Assembly (NCBI GenBank): GCA_030645675.1
Contig: JAUSLQ010000023.1
Span: 1 to 61,817, forward strand
Reading direction: 5' to 3'
Source of the DNA: Actinomycetota bacterium
GTDB taxonomy: Bacteria > Actinomycetota > Acidimicrobiia > Acidimicrobiales > Ilumatobacteraceae
DNA length: 61,817 nucleotides
Part shown: positions 38,672 through 51,144 of the stretch, one piece after another
How the letters are laid out: each line of letters begins with the position of its first letter
Position numbering within the stretch: the first letter of the stretch is position 1
Position numbers and translations under genes: made by a program
The notes under the pieces: generated by a model
What the model was told of the DNA's origin: nothing
What the model saw: the letters and a program-made list of their open reading frames with translations, nothing else
The model's database searches: none

Positions 38672-39184
38672 GGGACTGTCAGAACGTTTGTGTAAACGGG
38701 CGTGGTAGTCATGTTAGTAGGTGCCGTTGAGGCGGTTGCCGTAGTGGATGGTCAGGGTGTTGAGGATCGTCTTCCAGCCGTTGATCTGGCCGGTGAGGTT
38801 CTCTCGGTTGTGCTTGCGTTCGGTGGCGACGAGGTAGAGGACCTTCAGCGCGGCTTGCTCGTTGGGGAAGTGCCCTCGATGTCTGACAGCGCGTCGGAAC
38901 CGGGCGTTGAGGCTCTCGATCGCGTTGGTCGTGTAGACGATGCGGCGCAGCTCGGGTGGGAACTCGAGGAACGGGATGAACTCGTTCCAGGAGGTCTCCC
39001 ACGAGTTGATCATCGCCGGATACTGCTCGCGCCAGCGGTCGGCGAACTCGGCGAACAACGCTTCGGCGGCCGGCAACGAGGGGGCGGTGTAGATCTCGCG
39101 CATCTCGCGGGTGATCGTCGACCAGTACTTCTTCGACACATAGCGGAGCGTGTTGCGCACGAGATGCACGACACAGACTCCTGT

Positions 39185-39190
39185 TGTCAA
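39185..39190 (-). promoter_or_regulatory. -35 half of the IS110 circle-junction promoter
   Basis: A consensus TTGACA (minus strand) 8 bases inside the right end of the element. In the excised circle it would face CACTAT (40650-40655) in the left end with an 18-base spacing (8 + 2 core + 8), creating a promoter for the bridge RNA and recombinase. Confidence 0.65.
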
Positions 39191-39261
39191 CCTGTCGGGT
39201 CTGCGGGCGCGTCGAGTTGGCCGGCGCCTGTCGGCGGCCGGCGGATCTGACGATGGGTTGA

Positions 39262-40446
39262 TCAGCTGTTGGGGCGGTGGCGTGCGGTGTCGTAGGTGGT
39301 GCCGTCTTGCCAGCAGCGCCACAGGACGCGCAGCCAGGACGCGGAGACTGCTCGGAGGGCGCCGTGGTAGGTGGCGCCGCGTTCCATCGCCGCGAGGTAA
39401 CGGGTCCGTGAGATCGGATCGATCCGCTTCAGGACGTGCGCCCAGGTCGTGGTCGTGGAGCGCAGCCGCCGGTTGCAGGCCCAGCGGATGTGGACCCGTT
39501 GCACCTTGCCCGATGCGAGCGTGACCGGGGCGGCGCCGGCCTCGGCGAGCAGCACTTGCGCTGTCGGGTAGCGATCTCGGTCCTCGCCGATCTCAGCAAG
39601 GAGCTCGGCGGCGATCACCCGACCGGTGGCTGGAAAGCTGAGGAAGATCTCATGGTCGGGATGTTGGGTGAGGAGCCCGTCGATGCGACGGTTGTAGGCG
39701 CGCAGCTGGGTGTTGAACATCTCGAGCTGATCGGCGAGATGCAACGCGGCGTAGCGATGACCGGCGACGCTGCCGTCCGAGGCGGACAACAGGTTGGTGC
39801 GAACCCGTTCGACGAGCACCGCCGCCGGCACGCGCCCGGTGTAGCCGATCCGGCTGCAGAACCGTGCCATCCGAGCCTCCCCGACGTGCGAGGCAGCGTT
39901 CGGGGTCGGGTAGTCCCGCAGGAACGCCAGCGTGGCGTCACGATCGACCGACGAGAACAGCCCGACGACCGCAGGGTGATACGCCAGCAGCGTTTCGCGG
40001 AGCTGGGACTCAACCATGATCTGCGACTCGACAGCTTGACGGCGGTGACGCACGACCTGGCGCAGCTCGGCATGCAGATCCGACGACGGGCGCAACGCCC
40101 GCCAGCGATGCCCGTCGGTGCGCAACGTTTCTGCGAGCACGAACGCGTCGAATCGGTCGTTCTTGCGGGCTGCTGCCTGGTGACGCTCTCGGGCACGCGC
40201 CGAGACGCGTGGGCTCACGGGGAACACGGCGATCTGCGCGGCGTGGAGCCGGTCGACGATGATGCCGTCCGAGCGTTCGATCGCGACGCCGATCAGGCCG
40301 GGGAGTTCGACCAGCCGGCCAACCAGCGCGTCGAGGCCGTCGACGGTGTGAGCGTGGCGCTTGTTGAACAGCTCGACACCTGTGTCGTCGACGGCGGCGA
40401 CTTGGTGATGGGTGGCACCCCAATCGATGCCAGCGAACGTGGGCAT
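39262..40446 (-). CDS. IS110-family recombinase (RuvC-like DEDD plus serine domain)
   Basis: 394 residues, intact. The N-terminal RuvC-like domain carries the DEDD acids: Asp in FAGIDWGATHHQVA, Glu in GVAIERSDGII, and two Asp in RKNDRFDAFVLAE. A coiled helical linker follows. The C-terminal Tnp domain contains the catalytic Ser in AGAAPVTLASGKVQ and the closing RWACNRRLR. The start is ATG at 40446 with GGAGGAGG 3 bases upstream. Enzymes of this family recombine target and donor DNA chosen by a bridge RNA. Confidence 0.92.
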   Translation of the reverse strand: MPTFAGIDWGATHHQVAAVDDTGVELFNKRHAHTVDGLDALVGRLVELPGLIGVAIERSDGIIVDRLHAAQIAVFPVSPRVSARARERHQAAARKNDRFDAFVLAETLRTDGHRWRALRPSSDLHAELRQVVRHRRQAVESQIMVESQLRETLLAYHPAVVGLFSSVDRDATLAFLRDYPTPNAASHVGEARMARFCSRIGYTGRVPAAVLVERVRTNLLSASDGSVAGHRYAALHLADQLEMFNTQLRAYNRRIDGLLTQHPDHEIFLSFPATGRVIAAELLAEIGEDRDRYPTAQVLLAEAGAAPVTLASGKVQRVHIRWACNRRLRSTTTTWAHVLKRIDPISRTRYLAAMERGATYHGALRAVSASWLRVLWRCWQDGTTYDTARHRPNS

Positions 40447-40459
40447 GGCCTCCTCCTTC

Positions 40460-40665
40460 GAGGCTTGCTCACCCGCGTCGACAGGCCACCACCGTCACTC
40501 GTTATGGCGCTCATGGCGCGACTCCTGCTCGCAGTTCGAAGCCCGTCATCGGCGGGAGGGACAGGTCTGCGTCGGGACCTCGAAGGTCGGTCTGCACTGG
40601 CCCTCTCCCGCCGATGCGGATGACACCCGAAACCATTCCGGGCAGGCCCATAGTGAACTAACGAA
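40460..40665 (-). ncRNA. Bridge RNA of the IS110 element (predicted)
   Basis: Read on the minus strand. A 12-bp stem (40605-40616 with 40547-40558) encloses an internal loop capped by the small hairpin GACCT-CGA-AGGTC. The 5' side of this loop has GTGCAGACC (40589-40597), identical to the left target plus the first core base. The 3' side has CCCGACGCAG (40567-40576), which matches the reverse complement of the right target with core (CACGACACAG) at 8 of 10 positions. A second loop follows with GCAGGAGTC (40520-40528) against the right element end (ACAGGAGT plus core C). It has a GCGC-CATGA-GCGC hairpin, then TAACGAG (40498-40504) against the reverse complement of the left element end (CTAACG plus core AG). 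This is the IS621-type target-loop and donor-loop layout. Confidence 0.78.
40650..40655 (-). promoter_or_regulatory. -10 half of the IS110 circle-junction promoter
   Basis: CACTAT on the minus strand, 8 bases inside the left end. It only becomes a promoter when joined to the TTGACA in the right end after excision. Confidence 0.5.
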
Positions 40666-41586
40666 GTCTGCACGGTCGCCTGTGGCCAGGTCGCCCGGAT
40701 CGACTCGGGCAGCCCCTTGAGGCCGTCACAGCACACGATCAACGCGTCGGCCAAGCCGCGGTTGCGGAGCTCGGTGAGCATCGTCGCCCACTGCTTCGCA
40801 CCTTCCCCGCCAGAGGGTCCGACCCACAGGCCGAGCACATCACGTTCGCCGTCCATGTTGACCCCGATGACCACGTAGACCGGCCTGTTCGCGACCTGGC
40901 TGCCGCGGATCTTGACCACGATGCAATCGATCAACAGCACCGCATACACGGGGTCGAGTGGCCGATGCTGCCAGGCCTGCAGGTCCTCGACGATCGCGTC
41001 GGTGATCTTCGAGATCGTCTCCCGACTGATCTCGGTGTCATAGATCTCGGCGAGGTGCTGCTGGATGTCACCGGTGGTCATCCCCTTCGCGTACAGCGAG
41101 ATGATGTTCCCGGTCAGCCCGTCGAGCCGGCGGACATGCTTGGGCACCGTCGCCGGTTGGAAGGTCCCCAACCGGTCACGGGGCATCTGCACCTCGACCT
41201 GACCGATCTCGGTCGTGATCGTCTTCGGGTACGAGCCGTTGCGGTTGTTGCCCGACCCGCGACCATCGACCGCGTAGGGTTCATAACCGAGATGCTCCGC
41301 CAGCTCGACGTTCAACCCGGTCTGCAACACCTGACGCACCATCCGGTCAACAACCCGTTGTCGCCGGTCAACTCGACACCCTCGCTGCGGGCGCGAGCAA
41401 CGAGTTGCTCAGCCCACTCACGCATCTCGGGCGACCCGGCCATCACCGGCACGCCACGCGAAGCAGGCACCAGCCCGCCCCCCTCATCAGTCCTTCTCGA
41501 AGCCATGGAAGTGATCCTTTCCGCCCCGGCCCTTCCAGCCGCGGACGCTCAGACCACGCCACTCACACAAAATTCCTGACAGACCC

Positions 41587-41708: not shown

Positions 41709-42958
41709 GGTCGTGGCTACACCTGACTGATTTGGGGTGTGGCGATGTCGTCGAGGAACTGGAAGCCTGGACCGATGCCGTTGACGGCGAAGCGTGACTT
41801 GTACGTTCAGCTGATGAGCCAAGGATTGCGCAACAGCGAAGCCTGCAGACAGGTCGGCGTGAACCGGAAGACGGGGCAGCGATGGCGGCTCGGCCGCGTG
41901 GTGAAGGACCCCAAGCGCGGCGAGTACTCCTACGACCCGATCGTGCCGGCGGCGGCCGAGATGTCGAAGCGCTACCTGTCGGACCAGGAACGGCTCGTGA
42001 TCGCTGACGGCGTTCGCGCTGGCCGTTCGAGACGCTCGATCGCGGCCGAGCTCGGTCGCAGTGTGTCGACGGTGTGCCGTGAGGTTGTTCGCAACGCTGA
42101 GCCGTCTGGTGAGTATCGACCGCACGCCGCGCAGCAACGGATGCTTGCTCGCCGGCCACGCCCGAAGGACCATCGGGTCGCGCTGAACGTCGAGCTTCGG
42201 GGCATGGTTCAAGAACGGCTCGACAAGCGTTGGAGCCCGGAGCAGATCTCGAAGAGCTTGCGCGTTGAGTGCCCCGACCGCCCCGACCTGCAGCTGGCGC
42301 CGGAGTCGATCTACCAGGCTCTCTACGCCGTCTCCAGCGTGTTGACGAGCAGCCCGAAGGTGGTGCTCAGGACGGGACGATTGAATCGCCGGCGGCGTCG
42401 GAGCGGGAAACGGAGCAGCCGTTTCATCGTTCCGATGACACCGATCAAAGACCGACCACGAGAGGTCGAAGACCGCGTTGAGGTCGGCCATTGGGAGGGC
42501 GACCTCATCACCGGCACGCTCAACCAGTCCGCCATCGGCACACTCGTCGAGCGGTCAACCAGGTTCACGATCCTGGTGCATTTCGTGGGCACCCACGACG
42601 CCGAACAGCTGCGCGATTCCATGACCACGATCTTCAAGCGGCTTCCTCCCGGCCTGCGCCGATCGCTCACTTGGGACCAGGGAATCGAGATGGCACGACA
42701 CCACGAGTTCAGCGCCGCGACGTCGATGCCGGTGTACTTCTGCGAACCACGCTCGCCGTGGCAGCGCGGCACGAACGAGAACACGAACGGCCTCCTGCGG
42801 CAGTACTTTCCAAAGGGCACCGACCTGTCCGTCCACACGCCCGAGGACCTTCAGCGTGTCGCTGACGAACTCAACGGACGACCCCGCAAGGCTCTCGGTT
42901 GGAGGTCGCCAGCCGCAGTGTTTGCTAGCCTCAATTTCTCCGCCGTGTAGCTACGATC
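41709..42958 (+). mobile_element. IS30-family element
   Basis: Inverted repeats TCGTGGCTACAC (41711-41722) and GTGTAGCTACGA (42945-42956) agree at 11 of 12 positions and bracket the transposase gene closely. The exact outer ends and the short target duplication cannot be fixed. Bases 41648-41708 on its left match nothing I recognise. Confidence 0.72.
41739..42950 (+). CDS. IS30-family transposase
   Basis: 403 residues. An N-terminal helix-turn-helix (RNSEACRQVGVNRKTGQRWR) and the IS30 HTH (YLSDQERLVIADGVRAGRSRRSIAAELGRSVSTVCREV) are followed by the DDE core. The core has GHWEGDLITG with the first Asp, RSLTWDQGIEMARH with the second and SPWQRGTNENTNGLLRQYFPKG with the Glu. The frame is complete, so it may be active. 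GTG at 41739 and ATG at 41745 are both possible starts. Confidence 0.92.
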   Translation: MAMSSRNWKPGPMPLTAKRDLYVQLMSQGLRNSEACRQVGVNRKTGQRWRLGRVVKDPKRGEYSYDPIVPAAAEMSKRYLSDQERLVIADGVRAGRSRRSIAAELGRSVSTVCREVVRNAEPSGEYRPHAAQQRMLARRPRPKDHRVALNVELRGMVQERLDKRWSPEQISKSLRVECPDRPDLQLAPESIYQALYAVSSVLTSSPKVVLRTGRLNRRRRRSGKRSSRFIVPMTPIKDRPREVEDRVEVGHWEGDLITGTLNQSAIGTLVERSTRFTILVHFVGTHDAEQLRDSMTTIFKRLPPGLRRSLTWDQGIEMARHHEFSAATSMPVYFCEPRSPWQRGTNENTNGLLRQYFPKGTDLSVHTPEDLQRVADELNGRPRKALGWRSPAAVFASLNFSAV

Positions 42959-43375: not shown

Positions 43376-44152
43376 CTACTCGCCAGTCGCCTCGCGGCAT
43401 GAGCGATTAGCATAGATGTCTGGAAACATCTCGGACACGGTCATGCTTGGCAGGCTCCAGCAGTTCCAACCTTCAGCTAGCCAGGTCGGCTCTGTCACCC
43501 ATGAGCCATTCTCGTTTCTCAAGGTCCACACCGATCCGCTAGTGGTTTTGACTCGATGTAGGACGGAAGGGTTCTTCACAAGGAAAGTGATGTCTTCGTT
43601 CTCACCGACACCACTTCCGCGCAACACACGGTCGACGCGGAGTGTCACCCTACCATCGGTAGCAACTGAGTCATCGCGATCGCCCACCAGCTCGACGACA
43701 AGATCGGCTTTGTTGACGAGTCGCCGAGTCTCCTCGGCGACTGCCCCAGGAAACGCCTCATACACGTCGGCGGCGTAACCATCGTTCAGCACCCACGGGT
43801 ACGGAGGCAGCACCATACCTGGCAACGCCCCGTCGCCCGGCGAGACTCCTACCGGAAGGCCGTCCGGACCGAACATCCAGACACCTAGTTCAGAGGTCTG
43901 CACTTGCGACCACGGAAAGCGATACAGGCCTTCGTCATCGAGGTCCAGGGTTCCCTGCAAGAACATCACTGGGCGAAGGGCGATCTCGCCGTCCACGCCG
44001 CTCTCAACCGCCTCCCCTGCGACAACTACGTCGGCGGTAGTGAGCTTCAAGACGTAGTAACCGTGGGGATTGGGCATCTGAGATTCGTGGGTACACGCTG
44101 CGAGTCCGAGGGCGAGTATTGCTGCACATGCCCGCAATCGACGCCTAGACAT
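43376..44152 (-). CDS. Lipoprotein coupled to the RHS-protease gene (candidate immunity protein)
   Basis: 258 residues. The lipoprotein signal ends in GLAAC (Cys20). The mature protein begins with a beta-rich part (YYVLKLTTADVVVAGEAVES). A central region follows with WMFGPDGLPVGVSPGDGALPG, and then a second half with VTLRVDRVLRGSGVGENEDITFLV. I recognise no family. Its ATG shares a base with the rhs stop (TAATG at 44150-44154), so translation is coupled. Position, coupling and surface anchoring fit an immunity protein against the calpain-like tip, which is inference. Confidence 0.72.
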   Translation of the reverse strand: MSRRRLRACAAILALGLAACTHESQMPNPHGYYVLKLTTADVVVAGEAVESGVDGEIALRPVMFLQGTLDLDDEGLYRFPWSQVQTSELGVWMFGPDGLPVGVSPGDGALPGMVLPPYPWVLNDGYAADVYEAFPGAVAEETRRLVNKADLVVELVGDRDDSVATDGRVTLRVDRVLRGSGVGENEDITFLVKNPSVLHRVKTTSGSVWTLRNENGSWVTEPTWLAEGWNCWSLPSMTVSEMFPDIYANRSCREATGE

Positions 44153-47100
44153 TACGCGACTATTACGTGGTCGAAGTTCGCCGAGAACACCGAAATCGGC
44201 ATAGACCAGGCGCCCCGATCGGAGTAGTTAACCCGACTGTCATTCTTGACAGTACCGACCGCTCCCTCTCCTGGTATTCCCCATGGGTTGGTTACGACGA
44301 CCATCCAATCTCCGTTCTCGTCTGCGTACACACCATTAACAACCCACACATGGGATCCGCCCAGCCCGAATTGCCCATCACTGCGCGCCACTATCCCTCT
44401 CGTCGGGTTGTTCCGGATCAAATTGACGAGGTCACCGTCTGACGGATCCCACCAAAACGCTGGATTGAGTGCGGTCGAGTCGAAAGGCAATCCCATGTAC
44501 TCAAAGGCAAACTCTGCAGAACCGCCACTAATCAGATCGTAGTCTCCGCCTCGCAACTGAGCGACCGCCTTCTCCATCACCAGCGGCCAGAGACAACCAT
44601 TTGCCTTCGCGTAGAGCTCCTGGCCATTTGAGTCCACGTAGAAGTCTGCATCGACAGTGACATCGCCCATGATGCCGGCACCACTGAAGTGGACTGTGAA
44701 GGTTCCGTTTCCGTTGTCAGTGATCATGTTCTTTATCCAATCCGGGCTGGTCAAAGCAATACTTCCGAGTGCAGCCATGAACCAACAATCGCCGACCTGG
44801 CCCTGCTGTACGTCGCTAAGCCGTGGCCCGTTCGGCCCGAAGAGCGGCAGCGAACTGAGGTCCTCCGTGGTGCTTCCGTTGTGCGCATCTACTGGGTCCG
44901 GGTCTTCGAGGTTGACCTTGCCAGTCGCCTTTGGGGCACCTGCCGGTCCATAGCATGCGCCGTCGACGCACCCACCCGCGCCGATCGCAGCCAAGCCGCT
45001 TGGGTCACTCAAAGTCGTCGGATTGCCGCTTGAGTAAAGGTACGGCTGGCCGGTCCGGCCCACCAGAGGATCTACCGTTACAAACACCCCAACCGCTGGG
45101 TCGTAGTAGCGGTTGTTGAGGTAGGTGAGGCCGGTGGTGTCTTCGGGTTGGCCGAGGTAGCCGTGGTCGGTGTTGGTGAAGGTGACGGTGTTGCGATCGT
45201 CGCCGTAGGGGGTGTAGCGCTTCCGCGCCGGTGCTGCAGGGGCACTGTTCTTAGGGGCTTGACAGGTGTTCGAGTTCTGCATGCTGCCACACCACCAGGT
45301 GATGCTGGCGGTGCCCCCGCCGACGCTGGTCGCGATCGCGACTTGGGTGGTGCCGATGGTGATGTAGGTACTGATCGTGCGGGTGGCACCGGTGGCGGCG
45401 ACTTCCATACCGGGAAGGTACAGGGTGCGGGTGACGCCTGCTTGGCGGATCAGCCGCTGGTTCGATGTCGAGTAGACGTAGCTCTCGGTGGCACCGTACG
45501 TCTTGAGGCGCTGTTGGGTGTCGTAGACGAGGGTGGTGCCGTTGCGGGTGGCCATCGCCCCGATCGCGTTGTAGGTGTAGGAGCCGGCGACACCGCCGGT
45601 GGTCGAGCTGACCGCGTGGGTGTGGCCGGGGGCGTTGTAATTGTAGGTGGTGGTCGACGCGGTCATCTTGTTGACTCGTGACGTCATGCGGTTGATGTCG
45701 TCGAAGGTCCACACCTGGTCATACGGGTCGCGGCTACCAGTGGCGACCGTCGCCGAGGTGGTGTTGGTCGCGCAGGCGGCACCGAGGGCGGCGCTGTGGG
45801 CGCGGATCAGCCGGTTCCATTGGTCGTAGAGGAAGCACTCCTTGACGTCCGATGGTGTCCAGCCGGGTTCCTTGCCGTTGTCGACGATCTGGGTGACGTT
45901 CCCGATGGCGTCGCGGGTGTAGGCGTCGTTCTGGAACCAGCTGGTCGACCCGTTGAGCAACCACCCGGCCTTGAACGTCGACAACGCCCCGGTGGAGGTG
46001 TCGTACCCGTATTCGCGTTGCATCGCGGAGACGTTGCTGGCAGTGGTGTCGGACAGGGTTCGTGAGGTGACCCTGCCGTATTGGTCGAGACCGGTGCCGG
46101 TAACGTAGTAGCCGGGGTTGGTGCCGACCGGTTGGGTGACACCGGCCCACGCCTTGTCCGGTTGGGCGAACCCGTCGTAGTGGGTGGTGGTCTGATCCCA
46201 CGCCGGAAGATCGTTCGGATTCGCCGGGTTGACCGGGGTCTTCGGCCGCGACACCGTGATCGGTTGCCCGGCTTCGTTGTAGCTGGTGGTGAACTTCCAA
46301 TCACCGGCCAACAGATCTGTGCCGTAGGTTCCCGGGACGTTGACCTTCGTGCCCAACGGCAGGTAACGGGGTGAGTATTGCTGCACCGTCGAGGTGTACT
46401 GCACCCCGGCCTGCCATGACGTTTCGGTCGCGACCAGGCCTTTGCCGCCGGTGACGGTGTCGTAGGTCCACGAGGCCAACTTGTCCGTTCCCGCGGCCGC
46501 AGCGAAGCTGCCCGCGCCGCCGGACCAGCGGCCGATCGGTCGACCCAAGATGTCGTACTCGGTGTGGACCACATTGCCGGCCGCGTCAGCGGTCTGTGTG
46601 ATGTTGCCGTTGGCGTCATACACGAGGCTCGAGTACCCGGCGTTGGGGTCGATCGAGACGATCGTGCGCCCGGCCAGATCGGTAAGCGTCACCGTGGTGA
46701 TGATCGCATCATCGTAGGCAACCGTCGTCAACCAGCCAGCCATGTCATACCCGCCGGCCACGTTGGCGGTGTCCGAGTACCCGAACCCGAACGTGGTCAC
46801 CGAACTCCCATCCGGGCTGGTGCCACCGGAGCCTTGCGCGTTCGCGGGTGTGCTGCCGTTGTAGGTTTCGATCCGGCTGACACGCCCGAGCCCGTCGACA
46901 GTGGTCTTCTGCCACGACCCGATCTGCGGTTTGGTGATCGTTGATGTGCCCAAATACTCGGTGGCCGTGGTGACCAACGTGTTGATACCCCACTTGCGGG
47001 TGCTCGAGGTCGCCCTGTTGGCGGTATCGAACACCGCGTTATCGGTCCGCAACGTGACCCCGGTAGGCAGGTTCGGCCAGGTCGTGAACCCATTCGCCTG

Positions 47101-50100
47101 GTTCACGGACGGCGAGCTGCGGTCACCAGGAGCTGCATCGGCGATCGCGAACGCTTCGATCCCGGTGACCGTGTTCCCCCGCTCATCGACCAACGCACCG
47201 GATGCGATGATCTGCCCGGCGGTCGGTGACCACGCCTGGGTTTCACGAGTACGACCGAACCCGTCGATGTAGGCGGCGGTCTCCACCCGCACGTCATTGG
47301 CCAGGGTGGTGCCGTCCTGCAACACCGAGCTGATCACGATTGTCGGGGTCTTGTGCTCGCGGGTGCCGTCATAGGCGCCGATGTCGTAGGTGAACATCGC
47401 TGCCGGGACCTCATCGCTGTCCAGCGGGTTCGTGATCAGCTTGCCGCACGGGGCCACCCGATCGGTCCCATTCAACCGCGGCTGGAACGCAGCCGTCACC
47501 CGCGACAGCGAGTCGTAACAGAAGTTCGACTGCCGCAGGTTCTGATCACGGGTCCAGTTCGGTTGCCCATCCCCAGGGCGCAAGCTGGTGGTCACCGACC
47601 CCAGACTCAACGGATAGGTCGCCGACGCCGGATACCCGTACGTCGCGTCGAACCCGAAGACCACCGACGCGGTCGGTGTCGCTTTGGCGCTCTCGACGGC
47701 GTCGTAGGTGGCGGTCACCCGCCCGGCGGTGTCGTATGTGGTGCGCGTGTACAGCCACCGGTTCAACAGATCCGTGGCACCATCGGCGTTCTTGGTCCGG
47801 GTCATCGCTGTCGTCACCAACGGCTTGAACCCCGCACCCAGGGTCTGGGCCATGGCGTCCAACGCCAGTGCGGTGGGTCCGCTGCCGGAGGAGTAGCTGT
47901 TCGAGTTGTAGAACTGCTTCGACACCCCGATCGGTTGGGTGCCACCACACCCCGAGGACACATACGACGGTTCATGGGTCGGCTGGGTACCGAGACTGTT
48001 CCACGACGCCTGCTGGGCGACCAGGTTCATCCACCCCGGTGATGTCGTCGTCGGTGTGCTGGCGGCGGCGATGTACCACGTGCGGGTACACGACTCGTCA
48101 CCAGCCCAGTCGGTGAACCCGGTGTTGTTCACCGCGATCATCCGCCCCAGCGTGTCGATCGAGGTGTCGGTGCGCTGGTACCGCCATGTCGGTGAGGCCA
48201 GGGTGCCGTCGCGGGAGATCGAGTTGGCCAAGGTCATTCGCCACTTGCGGGTCTGGCGTTGCGGGAGACCCGTCTTGGGGGCCACGCCGTCGGTGGACAC
48301 CTGTGTCCATGTCGAGTAGTTGCGGGAGCCGGACAGGAAGTTCGTGGTGTCGCCGTCCATCTGGTACGACTCGAACAACTGGCCCTGCAGCCAGTCCTGG
48401 TCGTAGATCGTGTTCGTGAACCCCTCCCCCGTGGGTGGCACCCAGGCGCTGGCGCCGAGGGTGCCGCGGGTCATCGTCACGGTCTTGGTCCCCGACGCTG
48501 CTTTGTCGCCGTGCATGCCCTGGTAGAACACCTGCTTCGACACCGTCAGGGTGTTCCCCGTCGTGCCGGACACCGTCTTCACCGTCTGGTAGCCGCGCCA
48601 TTCACCCCACGACACGTCATCGACGCCGGGGGTGTCGACCCACCACTCGTCGGGGTCGTGGTGCCAGGCGGCGCCGGTGTACGTGTACGTGTACGTCTGG
48701 GCCGGGGTGACCGCGGTGCCGGTCTGCCCGACCGCACCCGTCACCAGGTCTCGGACGACGACTTGGGAGACGGTCCACCTGCGGTAGACACCCCAGCCGG
48801 CGCCACCACCGGTGAACGACGCGTACATCGGGAAACAGTTCGTCGTGTTCGTCGACCAGTCCGGGTTGGACAGCGAGCAGGTCGGCGACGTGTAGGAGAT
48901 CTCAATCTTCTGCCCCAGATCATCGGTCAGCTCGGACAGGCGGAACTGGTTCATGTACGGCACCCCACCAGCCGGGTTGCCATCACGACGGTTCTGCAAC
49001 GGCACCCCACCGAACGCGGTGCCGGGCAGCAACGCCACCGGGCTCGACGGCGGGGTGACGGCCGGGGGCAGGAACAGGGCCGGGTCCTGCCACTGCACCC
49101 GGTAGATCGACGACAACCACAGCTTCTCGTTACCACCATCACCCGGATCGGGCAGCAACCCCCACGTCCGCCACTGGCCCACAGGCGACCAGCCGCTGCC
49201 ATCGGTGGACGTGTACGTGGAGATCAGGGCCAGGCGTTTGGTGTTGAAGAACGACACATCCTTGAAGCAATCGCCCGCCGGGCAGTACAGATCGGTGGGG
49301 ACATCGGGGTACGACGTGCCATGGGCGTTGTCGATCGTCGGACACGACGGATCGAACGATGACGACAACGCTTCCACACAGCGGCGCACGTAGGTGAATG
49401 CGACCTTGCCTCGGTAGCCGTTGATCCCCGCGTTGGGGGACTTGCCCCACTGGATCTCGGCCAACACCGCGTTCAAGTCGTAGTTCACCGCCGAATACCC
49501 GGAACCCATCGTCCGCGCCCGGTTGACGGTCACGTCGTACTTGTAGACCATCACATTGCCGTACGGGTCCTCGACCTTGTCCAACATCCACCGATACGGC
49601 ATGTCCGTGCACAACTTGTTGGTCAACGACCAACACGGATCATCCGAACCGGTGATCCCCCGCAACGGGCGCACCAACCGCGAGTTCTGCAACTCGTCCT
49701 CACGGCCGAACGTGTAGACCATGCCTTCCGGGGTGGTCACCTTCCAATACTCGTCGGTCCACCAGTTCCCCGACGCCGACGGGACCCGCTGCACCAGCCA
49801 ATCCGGGTCGTCCTTCAACCGCCACAACGTGAACGAGTTCGACACACCGGTCGTGCCGTTGACCGGCACCAACTCGCCCGCGTGACCGTTCAACGAAATC
49901 GTCGCGTTCTGCACATACCAACAACTGTCCGTCGTGCCGCCCCCGATCCTGCTGTCAGTGCACGGCAGGTAGCGGCGTTCGATGAACCCCTGCCCAGCCG
50001 ACAAGTTCCAACCGAGACCGACCTCGGAGGCCTGCGCGTTGACCGACGATGTGATCCCATCCACACCCGACGAGTCATACGACAGGGCCACCGACGGGCC

Positions 50101-50985
50101 GAGACCGTTGAACGCCGGCGGCAGCGTGATCGGATAGGAGTAGGAGAACGAACCGTTGTTGCCACCGACCTGCCAGCTACCGGAGTTCGACAACGACGTC
50201 GCCTGGAACGACCCCGCCGCCGAGGCAAGACCCAACGATGAGCCGTTGCCGGTGAACATCAGCGGCGACTCTCCAGTCGCCCCTGCCGGACGGGTGACGC
50301 CGATGGTGACGGTCGCGGTCAACACGCCCGCCTCGAGATCGTTGGTCACGTTCGCTACGGGCACTGGGTTGCCGCACTCCTTCGCAGCTGCCCGCGCCAT
50401 CGCCGGATCACACGCCCACTGCACCAACTGCAAGCGGTTCGACCAATCCGCACCGAGCGCGTAGCGGAACGCCGAATAGTCCACCGCCACCTCGACCGTC
50501 GCAGTCGAAATCCCGTCCGCTGGGTTGACACCGAACACCAGGATCTCGCCACCCATCGCCGCCACTGTCGCCGCATCCAACGACTCCACCACCACATCCG
50601 TCGGCTTCGCCACCGGCTCCACAGGCGCCGTGTCCACCGGAACACCACCGTCAAGCGGCACTGCCGGGGCGACCGTGGCATCCGCTACGGCCGCTGGAAC
50701 GGCCTTGATCGTCACCGGCAAACCAACCACCGCAACAGCGCGGTCCGTGCCCGCGGTGAGCGCCGCCGTCACCACGTCAGGAGTGCGCACCTCATGTGGC
50801 ACGTACGCCGGTGGCTCCACGATGTCATACGACGACGACCCCGGATCCATCGGCTCCGGCGACGGCACCGAATCAAACTCATTCACCCCAACCCTCGGCG
50901 GCCCCGCGTCCACCGGCGTGAACGGCAACCCGAACATCACCGTGGTCAGCGCCACCAACAACGCGACCCCACGCCGCCTCACCAC
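44152..50985 (-). CDS. Secreted RHS-repeat protein with C-terminal calpain-like protease tip
   Basis: 2277 residues from GTG 50985. A Sec signal peptide (VVRRRGVALLVALTTVMFG) is followed by a TcdB/SpvB-like region (GGNNGSFSYSYPITLPP, VALSYDSSGVDG). The long YD-repeat core ends in the RHS hallmark LTYLNNRYYDPAVGVFVTVDP (~1960) and NPTTLSDPSG. The last ~284 residues form a calpain-type domain with catalytic Cys in QGQVGDCWFMAALGSIA (~2067), His in GGSHVWVVNGVY (~2212) and Asn in VVTNPWG (~2233), in the correct order. GC content drops from the core into the tip (about 45000), a sign of a swapped tip. A TTG at 51015 opens the frame slightly earlier. The best ribosome binding site lies before an out-of-frame ATG at 51026. 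Confidence 0.9.
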   Translation of the reverse strand: MVRRRGVALLVALTTVMFGLPFTPVDAGPPRVGVNEFDSVPSPEPMDPGSSSYDIVEPPAYVPHEVRTPDVVTAALTAGTDRAVAVVGLPVTIKAVPAAVADATVAPAVPLDGGVPVDTAPVEPVAKPTDVVVESLDAATVAAMGGEILVFGVNPADGISTATVEVAVDYSAFRYALGADWSNRLQLVQWACDPAMARAAAKECGNPVPVANVTNDLEAGVLTATVTIGVTRPAGATGESPLMFTGNGSSLGLASAAGSFQATSLSNSGSWQVGGNNGSFSYSYPITLPPAFNGLGPSVALSYDSSGVDGITSSVNAQASEVGLGWNLSAGQGFIERRYLPCTDSRIGGGTTDSCWYVQNATISLNGHAGELVPVNGTTGVSNSFTLWRLKDDPDWLVQRVPSASGNWWTDEYWKVTTPEGMVYTFGREDELQNSRLVRPLRGITGSDDPCWSLTNKLCTDMPYRWMLDKVEDPYGNVMVYKYDVTVNRARTMGSGYSAVNYDLNAVLAEIQWGKSPNAGINGYRGKVAFTYVRRCVEALSSSFDPSCPTIDNAHGTSYPDVPTDLYCPAGDCFKDVSFFNTKRLALISTYTSTDGSGWSPVGQWRTWGLLPDPGDGGNEKLWLSSIYRVQWQDPALFLPPAVTPPSSPVALLPGTAFGGVPLQNRRDGNPAGGVPYMNQFRLSELTDDLGQKIEISYTSPTCSLSNPDWSTNTTNCFPMYASFTGGGAGWGVYRRWTVSQVVVRDLVTGAVGQTGTAVTPAQTYTYTYTGAAWHHDPDEWWVDTPGVDDVSWGEWRGYQTVKTVSGTTGNTLTVSKQVFYQGMHGDKAASGTKTVTMTRGTLGASAWVPPTGEGFTNTIYDQDWLQGQLFESYQMDGDTTNFLSGSRNYSTWTQVSTDGVAPKTGLPQRQTRKWRMTLANSISRDGTLASPTWRYQRTDTSIDTLGRMIAVNNTGFTDWAGDESCTRTWYIAAASTPTTTSPGWMNLVAQQASWNSLGTQPTHEPSYVSSGCGGTQPIGVSKQFYNSNSYSSGSGPTALALDAMAQTLGAGFKPLVTTAMTRTKNADGATDLLNRWLYTRTTYDTAGRVTATYDAVESAKATPTASVVFGFDATYGYPASATYPLSLGSVTTSLRPGDGQPNWTRDQNLRQSNFCYDSLSRVTAAFQPRLNGTDRVAPCGKLITNPLDSDEVPAAMFTYDIGAYDGTREHKTPTIVISSVLQDGTTLANDVRVETAAYIDGFGRTRETQAWSPTAGQIIASGALVDERGNTVTGIEAFAIADAAPGDRSSPSVNQANGFTTWPNLPTGVTLRTDNAVFDTANRATSSTRKWGINTLVTTATEYLGTSTITKPQIGSWQKTTVDGLGRVSRIETYNGSTPANAQGSGGTSPDGSSVTTFGFGYSDTANVAGGYDMAGWLTTVAYDDAIITTVTLTDLAGRTIVSIDPNAGYSSLVYDANGNITQTADAAGNVVHTEYDILGRPIGRWSGGAGSFAAAAGTDKLASWTYDTVTGGKGLVATETSWQAGVQYTSTVQQYSPRYLPLGTKVNVPGTYGTDLLAGDWKFTTSYNEAGQPITVSRPKTPVNPANPNDLPAWDQTTTHYDGFAQPDKAWAGVTQPVGTNPGYYVTGTGLDQYGRVTSRTLSDTTASNVSAMQREYGYDTSTGALSTFKAGWLLNGSTSWFQNDAYTRDAIGNVTQIVDNGKEPGWTPSDVKECFLYDQWNRLIRAHSAALGAACATNTTSATVATGSRDPYDQVWTFDDINRMTSRVNKMTASTTTYNYNAPGHTHAVSSTTGGVAGSYTYNAIGAMATRNGTTLVYDTQQRLKTYGATESYVYSTSNQRLIRQAGVTRTLYLPGMEVAATGATRTISTYITIGTTQVAIATSVGGGTASITWWCGSMQNSNTCQAPKNSAPAAPARKRYTPYGDDRNTVTFTNTDHGYLGQPEDTTGLTYLNNRYYDPAVGVFVTVDPLVGRTGQPYLYSSGNPTTLSDPSGLAAIGAGGCVDGACYGPAGAPKATGKVNLEDPDPVDAHNGSTTEDLSSLPLFGPNGPRLSDVQQGQVGDCWFMAALGSIALTSPDWIKNMITDNGNGTFTVHFSGAGIMGDVTVDADFYVDSNGQELYAKANGCLWPLVMEKAVAQLRGGDYDLISGGSAEFAFEYMGLPFDSTALNPAFWWDPSDGDLVNLIRNNPTRGIVARSDGQFGLGGSHVWVVNGVYADENGDWMVVVTNPWGIPGEGAVGTVKNDSRVNYSDRGAWSMPISVFSANFDHVIVA

Positions 50986-50995
50986 GCACCTACGG

Positions 50996-51012
50996 GTGTG
51001 TGTGTGTGTGTG
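50996..51012. repeat. (GT)8 microsatellite at the rhs start
   Basis: Eight GT units plus a G (CA on the coding strand). An ATG at 51024-51026, 5 bases after GGGGGG, reads through it for 15 codons and stops at 50979. Deleting one unit would put this ATG in frame with the rhs gene. The tract is unusual in such GC-rich DNA. Confidence 0.85.
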
Positions 51013-51144
51013 CAATTTCGGAACATCGAAACCCCCCAGGGCACGCGAGCAAGCTCACAGAAACGCCCTTGCGGCACCGTAAAGGCGCAGCCCCACCGAG
51101 TCAAGAGTCAGATTTCAAGAGTCGAGCGGCGGCGCCGTCACGGC

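Follow-up and report, generated by a model that had tools for sequence, protein, structure and literature searches.

A bridge-type RNA in an IS110-group element whose relatives share one insertion site in IS256 transposase genes

The window, i.e. the whole stretch of 61,817 nucleotides analysed here (contig JAUSLQ010000023.1 of an Ilumatobacteraceae genome), holds an IS256/Mutator transposase gene that is split by an element with its own recombinase gene and an RNA-bearing left end. The sequence features support the assignment of this element to the IS110 group of insertion sequences. Its boundaries were set by comparison with relatives and with the empty sites of a relative, and the locus reads as follows along the minus strand:

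40674..41342, minus: IS256/Mutator transposase, part before the insertion (to ...TVQ); PF00872 3.2e-70, positions 30-246
40666..40673, minus: left target (LT) GTGCAGAC in the IS256 transposase gene
40664..40665, minus: left core dinucleotide TT, taken as the target's own by the empty-site rule from relative G612
39177..40663, minus: IS110-group element, 1487 bp, from RD CGTTAG... at 40663 to LD ...AACAGGAGT at 39177, between the core dinucleotides
40625..40643, minus: 5' stem-loop of the bridge RNA, limits approximate; alignment columns 53-71, compensatory changes
40496..40626, minus: core of the bridge-type RNA; held-out covariance model R1 and compensatory pairs
39262..40446, minus: IS110 recombinase, 394 aa, of the DEDD plus serine type (D8, E57, D97, D100, S312); Pfam, invariant columns and IS621 profile alignment
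39185..39190, minus: TTGACA, -35-like box in the right end, which would face a left-end -10-like sequence across a circle junction
39175..39176, minus: right core dinucleotide CT, the donor's; sequence and comparison across loci
39169..39174, minus: right target (RT) GTGTCG
38714..39174, minus: IS256/Mutator transposase, part after the insertion (CVVHL...); PF00872 7.6e-39, positions 253-374

The recombinase matches PF01548 (3.1e-30) and PF02371 (9.8e-14), and its catalytic columns are invariant in a 10-row alignment. A profile match to IS621 (8wt6; 5.4e-28) places D8, E57, D97, D100 and S312 over IS621 D11, E60, D102, D105 and S241, the residue numbers being those in the sections of PMC11208158 used here with the chain numbering taken as offset by 2. 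The IS621 enzyme is a distant relative, since it was matched by profile only and a single-sequence PDB search with the recombinase gave no match at E 0.001. In the IS110 group the long left end carries the RNA and the right end is short, the reverse of IS1111; the focal element, with an RNA-bearing left end of 217 nt and a right end of 85 nt, has the IS110 layout. Together with the left-end structure and the fit to the element's own target and ends described below, these results bear out an earlier reading of the locus from sequence alone, which had proposed an IS110 element with a bridge-type RNA. The focal genome (G000) holds a single close copy, the other match being remote (30% identity, E 3e-4); the assembly is incomplete (79.95% complete), and the element's own empty site was not seen in it.

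Upstream of the insertion the IS256 gene seems, by eye, to be frame-broken near its N-terminus as well (window 41343-41507, minus), and the focal host copy is probably a relic. It adjoins a transposase with HTH_38 and rve domains on the opposite strand (41739-42950, plus), which we take to be of the IS30 type, and mobile elements are thus clustered in this part of the window. Further features are a 2287-aa RHS/SpvB-type repeat protein with a C-terminal calpain-type cysteine protease (44152-51015, minus; Peptidase_C2 7.3e-17), which looks like a polymorphic toxin-type protein, and, directly downstream of it, a 258-aa ORF without Pfam match (43376-44152).

The left ends of eight elements (the focal one, L012, L008, L010, L011, L088, one G612 copy and L021) were aligned (alignment A1, where the G612 type has a misalignment in its donor loop). 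In the RNAalifold consensus, a 5' stem-loop is followed by the long stem of the target loop, whose two guides are separated by an apical hairpin, and by a donor hairpin flanked by the two donor guides. Both sides had changed in 17 of the 45 consensus pairs; five of the 45, and three of the 17, are pairs between the element's first bases (RD) and the right donor guide, which reflect guide-donor complementarity and not an RNA stem. The left end therefore has the conserved structure of a bridge RNA with two guide loops, target then donor, and the guide loops in IS621 order that had been proposed are found as described, with all four guides in the stated order on the minus strand and compensatory pairs around them. 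The left end of L008 (L008:1240-1494) has about 30 extra bases, seemingly a second hairpin, ahead of the 5' stem-loop.

A covariance model (R1) of the seven other left ends, with the focal one left out (effective number 1.39, shortened calibration), recovered the focal RNA in the window with 112.9 bits (E 6e-26), and the next-best match (19.2 bits, E 0.0066) was the opposite strand of the same place. In six genomes searched at E 0.01, R1 found one place each in G000, G037, G562 and G1298, eight places in G612, which are its eight element copies, and one weak place in G102 (28.8 bits). Matches in the left ends of sister IS110 elements were weaker (21.8 to 44.9 bits in 8 of 9), with none in L015 and a partial one in L017; the best of them (L009:2735-2866, 44.9 bits) is a bridge-RNA-like left end. 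Lack of conserved structure across homologues had been named as an outcome that would speak against the proposal, and both the alignment and R1 show the structure to be conserved. Taken by itself, the fold energy of the focal left end stood out only slightly (z -1.64) and did not discriminate. Rfam gave no match in the window at the gathering threshold, and the three chance-level matches at the site at a relaxed threshold lay far below the cut-off, placing the RNA in no known Rfam family.

The four guides of the focal RNA are the following:

40590..40597, minus: left target guide (LTG) GTGCAGAC, next base C; 8/8 against LT
40567..40574, minus: right target guide (RTG) CGACGCAG, CGACGC plus an AG that complements a CT core; 5/6 strict, or 6/6 counting one G-T wobble
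40520..40527, minus: left donor guide (LDG) CAGGAGTC, CAGGAGT plus C; 7/8 strict against the right end of the element
40498..40504, minus: right donor guide (RDG) TAACGAG, TAACG plus AG; complementary to CGTTA at the left end together with a CT donor core, 5/6 strict

Three of the fits claimed by the sequence-only reading, i.e. a target-loop 5' side equal to the left target, a 3' side that fits the right target with a possible wobble, and a donor-loop match to the right element end, agree with these values. The fourth, that TAACGAG reverse-complements the left end, holds without a mismatch only if the donor core is CT; the DNA now there gives 6/7. All four guides in order occurred in none of 20,000 dinucleotide shuffles, of which 135 (LT), 2173 (RT, one mismatch allowed), 174 (LD) and 61 (RD) held the single motif. 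The shuffle test is post hoc, the motifs having been fixed once the matches were known, which does not apply to the held-out covariance match; with this limit, its result is in line with the earlier argument that such a four-guide fit is hard to get by chance.

Guides and sites also vary together among relatives. Across six elements with both ends, the number of the 720 permutations that paired guides and sites as well as or better than the true pairing was 36 for LTG, 12 for RTG, 2 for LDG and 4 for RDG; guides and sites were chosen by eye from alignments and relatedness was kept in, so that these counts are indications and not probabilities. The set omits L011 (no right end), L005 and L007 (broken or missing left end) and the eight G612 copies, whose guides are those of L021. 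As in a bridge RNA, the guides thus complement target and donor and covary with them among relatives, the check that had been suggested with the proposal, with more modest support for LTG because elements share guides and produce ties. The same loops at unrelated sites would have pointed the other way; L012 (64% protein identity) shares both target guides, LTG and RTG, with the focal element and is inserted at the same site, and its own LDG matches 8/8. Some guides are imperfect: RTG reaches 4/6 in L010, L088 and L021 even with wobble, LDG 6/8 in L021, and the G612 copies match LTG perfectly in L061 only, with one mismatch in six copies and two in L067.

The insertion point lies at a conserved position of the victim protein. 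In ISCth4, an IS256-family element, C262 and H265 form a C/DxxH motif important in catalysis and D241 is the second active-site Asp, according to the sections of PMC7780238 used here. The Cys of the focal host lies 21 residues past the corresponding Asp (CCDGLKG...TVQT|CVVH), the same spacing as in ISCth4, which represents the type of the victim and not of the inserted element. The T of the core is the first base of the Cys codon, while the first core base is the synonymous third position of the preceding codon. At this codon, eight IS256 relatives with the site, none of them an orthologue of the focal host, have ACC (two), ACG (three) or Leu codons (three), and ACT is absent from these eight, though the base varies among them.

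The same boundary recurs across the clade. Seventeen loci were found by recombinase similarity (the focal one, L005, L007, L008, L010, L011, L012, L021, L088 and the eight G612 copies), and at 16 of them an IS256-type transposase gene is split before the CxxH Cys. L007 is uncounted, its right side showing five residues (CVLHL) only; L011 contributes its left side only, and L005 has a degenerate right end (core CC) and an IS256-like left side (58% identity to L010 and L088). The host transposases differ down to ~30% identity with the codon boundary unchanged. In a tree of 15 recombinases, the six clade rows lie on one side of a branch with support 100/100; L005, L007, L011 and L088 are not in the tree and were placed by sequence similarity (L005 with 40% protein identity and a left end like that of L008, L007 with 91% over 67 aa, L011 and L088 with 75.5% and 70% identity to L010). 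Around nine sister elements (37-42% identity), the DNA examined gave IS256 matches in 0 of 9 with four IS256 queries, of which only L033 and L037 gave any matches and one, L024, probably has a wrong frame (585 aa), a test that gave no match at L005 or L007 either. Judged from these comparisons, the clade is dedicated to a single site, made up of the codon for the CxxH Cys of IS256/Mutator transposases and the codons immediately ahead of it.

Elements of the clade are sparse among genomes. Matches past the search cut-offs, the focal element and sisters included, were found in at least 3 of 298, at least 3 of 395, at least 5 of 396, at least 1 of 301 and at least 2 of 387 genomes, which are lower bounds given that 4-6 candidates were scored per genome in large groups. 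A scan of genome contigs gave five loci, with L006 being archaeal and partial. Relatives were found neither in viral contigs, searched by protein and right-end pattern, nor in phages at 1e-60. A second Pseudonocardia plasmid (NZ_CP012182.1) was among the matches listed.

Two host subgroups can be distinguished at the site, VQT|CxxH (CCDGL/VCDGL...VQT|CxxHL) in the focal locus, L012, L021 and G612, and WQR|CxxH (SDAH-like...WQR|CRVHF) in L008, L010, L011 and L088, to which L005 is added by its left side. Left-side proteins of the two are ~25-40% identical where BLAST aligned any. The LTG follows the host, with GTGCAGAC or GTGCAAAC for VQT and TGGCAGCG or TGGCAGGG for WQR. On the recombinase tree, with the topology ((L008 W,(focal V,L012 V)),(L010 W,(G612 V,L021 V))) and key forks of 91/95 and 96/93, this distribution means that the guides switched at least two times. 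At the place that faces the third base of the Cys codon, all four distinct RTGs have a G, and this G can pair with either TGC or TGT, the latter being the codon in the focal and L012 targets. From these few cases, this G may have been selected.

The most informative relative is G612, with eight element copies, each 1549 bp long and with 100% identity across the 1501 bases that were searched, which all lie inside split PF00872 genes, of four IS256 types. The 28 PF00872 matches of this genome comprise eight left halves, eight right halves, nine intact genes and three pieces of other broken genes. For six of the eight copies there is an intact counterpart that is identical over 398 nt to either side and leaves exactly 2 nt for the core, with no loss of target bases; the other two have no counterpart. 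By analogy, the focal copy would likewise have a 2-nt core without target loss. In copies L063, L065 and L066 the left core is GT and the right core is CT, and their counterparts L033 and L035 carry GT (ACG-TGC) at this place; in L060, L062 and L064 both cores are CT, as is the dinucleotide in the counterparts L037-L041. From the empty sites it follows that the left core was already present in the target, while the CT on the right comes from the donor. Across the 14 loci with both ends clean, a count that omits L005 as degenerate (GT on the left, CC on the right) and L007 and L011 as having one end only, the right core is always CT, while the left is CT in six, GT in five, AT in two and TT in one, i.e. 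non-CT in eight (focal TT; L012 and L008 AT; L021, L061, L063, L065 and L066 GT).

In IS621, as given in the sections of PMC11208158 used here, the top strands are cut at the 3' side of the core and then exchanged, conservation is lower at the first core base, and GT, AT and TT cores can be used. Such a cut and exchange predicts a left core from the target and a right core from the donor, both restored on excision. By this rule, the focal target core is probably TT and not CT. The sequence-only reading had placed the insertion in a broken IS256 frame with a CT target core; the broken frame stands, with PF00872 on both sides, while for the target core TT is likelier than CT, the left junction reading GTGCAGAC-TT-CGTTAG. 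The dedicated target of the clade and the likely TT target core go beyond what that reading had offered.

We consider it very likely that the focal locus is explained by a bridge-RNA element of the IS110 group that was guided into a dedicated CxxH site of an IS256 gene, with the left core contributed by the target and the right core by the donor. In the proposed cycle, the element would be excised as a circle in which right and left ends are joined into a promoter, and this would drive expression of the left-end bridge RNA. A TTGACA box is present in six of seven elements compared (TTGACT in L008), and the joined ends have this -35-like box followed by an AT-richer box after 17-18 nt, which makes promoter activity of the junction plausible; in IS621, the -35 lies in the right end and the -10 in the left end of the circle (sections of PMC11208158 used here). 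Bound by the recombinase, the RNA would pair through its target loop with GTGCAGAC-N-T-GTGTCG in IS256-type transposase genes and through its donor loop with the element's own ends. The recombinase would then cut the two top strands directly after the 2-nt core, on its 3' side, and swap them, leaving the target's left core (here TT) and the donor's CT on the right. Insertion would break the IS256 transposase gene, and the element might benefit by gaining a repeated, mobile harbour.

Other explanations have to be weighed against this. The shared site might be due to descent, a single old insertion having spread with IS256 copies while the guides are passive relics. Some of the data go in this direction: in G612, the composites of a given IS256 type are identical over 743-898 bases to the left and 506-574 to the right of the element, so that some copies may have been mobilised by IS256 rather than freshly inserted, and L021 and L063 have left flanks that are 98% identical. 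L060, L062 and L064 have the same IS256 ends with three different 8-bp direct repeats (outer flanks, by eye), and IS256, with or without its passenger, thus reached three places in this genome. Descent alone, however, sits badly with hosts differing down to ~30% identity, with guides that differ by host subgroup, with intact empty copies for two G612 IS256 types, and with identical IS110 copies in four IS256 types in G612 alone; these types are 48-90% identical on the left side and suggest at least four separate IS110 insertions. We regard it as very improbable. Least credible of all is an ordinary IS110 that lies in IS256 by chance because the latter is a common gene. Relatives of the focal IS256 are indeed common (370 plasmid records, many genera), but the same codon boundary recurs at 16 of 17 loci found by the recombinase and not by IS256, and none of the nine sister elements has IS256 matches in the surrounding DNA examined.

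The remaining two alternatives concern the focal copy. A CT target core with the left TT as a later point mutation would need a single C to T change only, RTG and RDG both carry the AG that complements CT, and ACT is absent in the eight IS256 relatives; yet the left core is non-CT at 8 of 14 clean loci with CT on the right in all 14, and GT is present in the G612 empty counterparts themselves, which leaves this explanation improbable. A greater chance, still a minor one, has to be given to the focal copy being a dead relic whose RNA is no longer made, which is compatible with guided insertion for the clade as a whole. It is a single close copy in its genome and its host IS256 appears frame-broken upstream as well, by eye, whereas the open 394-aa recombinase with all five catalytic residues, the intact loops and the -35-like box speak for a copy that may still be active.

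Starting from guided insertion into the dedicated CxxH site, a wider interpretation can be put forward tentatively, which we hold to be somewhat less probable than its opposite. The clade might be an RNA-guided homing hyperparasite of IS256 transposons, whose guides read a protein-level motif and were re-aimed at least twice between host subgroups, and which silences IS256 while riding on composites moved in trans by intact IS256 copies. Bridge RNAs are programmable, and little is known of their natural re-aiming; a clade that keeps one protein-defined target over bacterial classes, with guides that follow the codons of its victims, offers a natural record of such reprogramming. Likewise, the empty sites are natural evidence for a left core from the target and a right core from the donor, a rule that would explain the survival of the CT donor core at NT sites. 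The pattern also suggests that members of one transposon family can be suppressed by those of another through RNA guides.

The insertion of IS110 elements into transposase genes of IS256 is not described in the portions consulted of PMC11208160, PMC11208158, PMC11187229, PMC7780238, PMC9208149 and PMC2516522, and a literature search for bridge RNA, IS110 and IS256 together, outside the scope of which lay supplements, most subscription papers and ISfinder, found none. The IS110 bridge RNA itself is of a known kind, and the dedicated target and guide reprogramming are new. As far as the portions of PMC11208160 and PMC11208158 used here describe it, IS621 shares with the focal element the DEDD-serine recombinase, the left-end RNA with a 5' stem-loop followed by target and donor loops, the LTG/RTG and LDG/RDG guides, the CT core, and the -35 and -10 in right and left end; the focal element differs in its distant recombinase, its codon-conserved target in IS256 transposase genes and its own guide set. 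Other IS110-superfamily elements dedicated to another transposon are likewise specialised but hit transposon ends, in contrast to the focal clade, which hits the CxxH codons of transposase genes in hosts down to ~30% identity. Conserved active-site codons also serve as insertion sites of homing endonucleases, inteins and group I introns. The focal clade resembles these in landing at a conserved protein motif and tolerating variation at synonymous positions, and differs in that the site would be recognised by RNA guides and that the gene of a rival mobile element is broken instead of being preserved by splicing.
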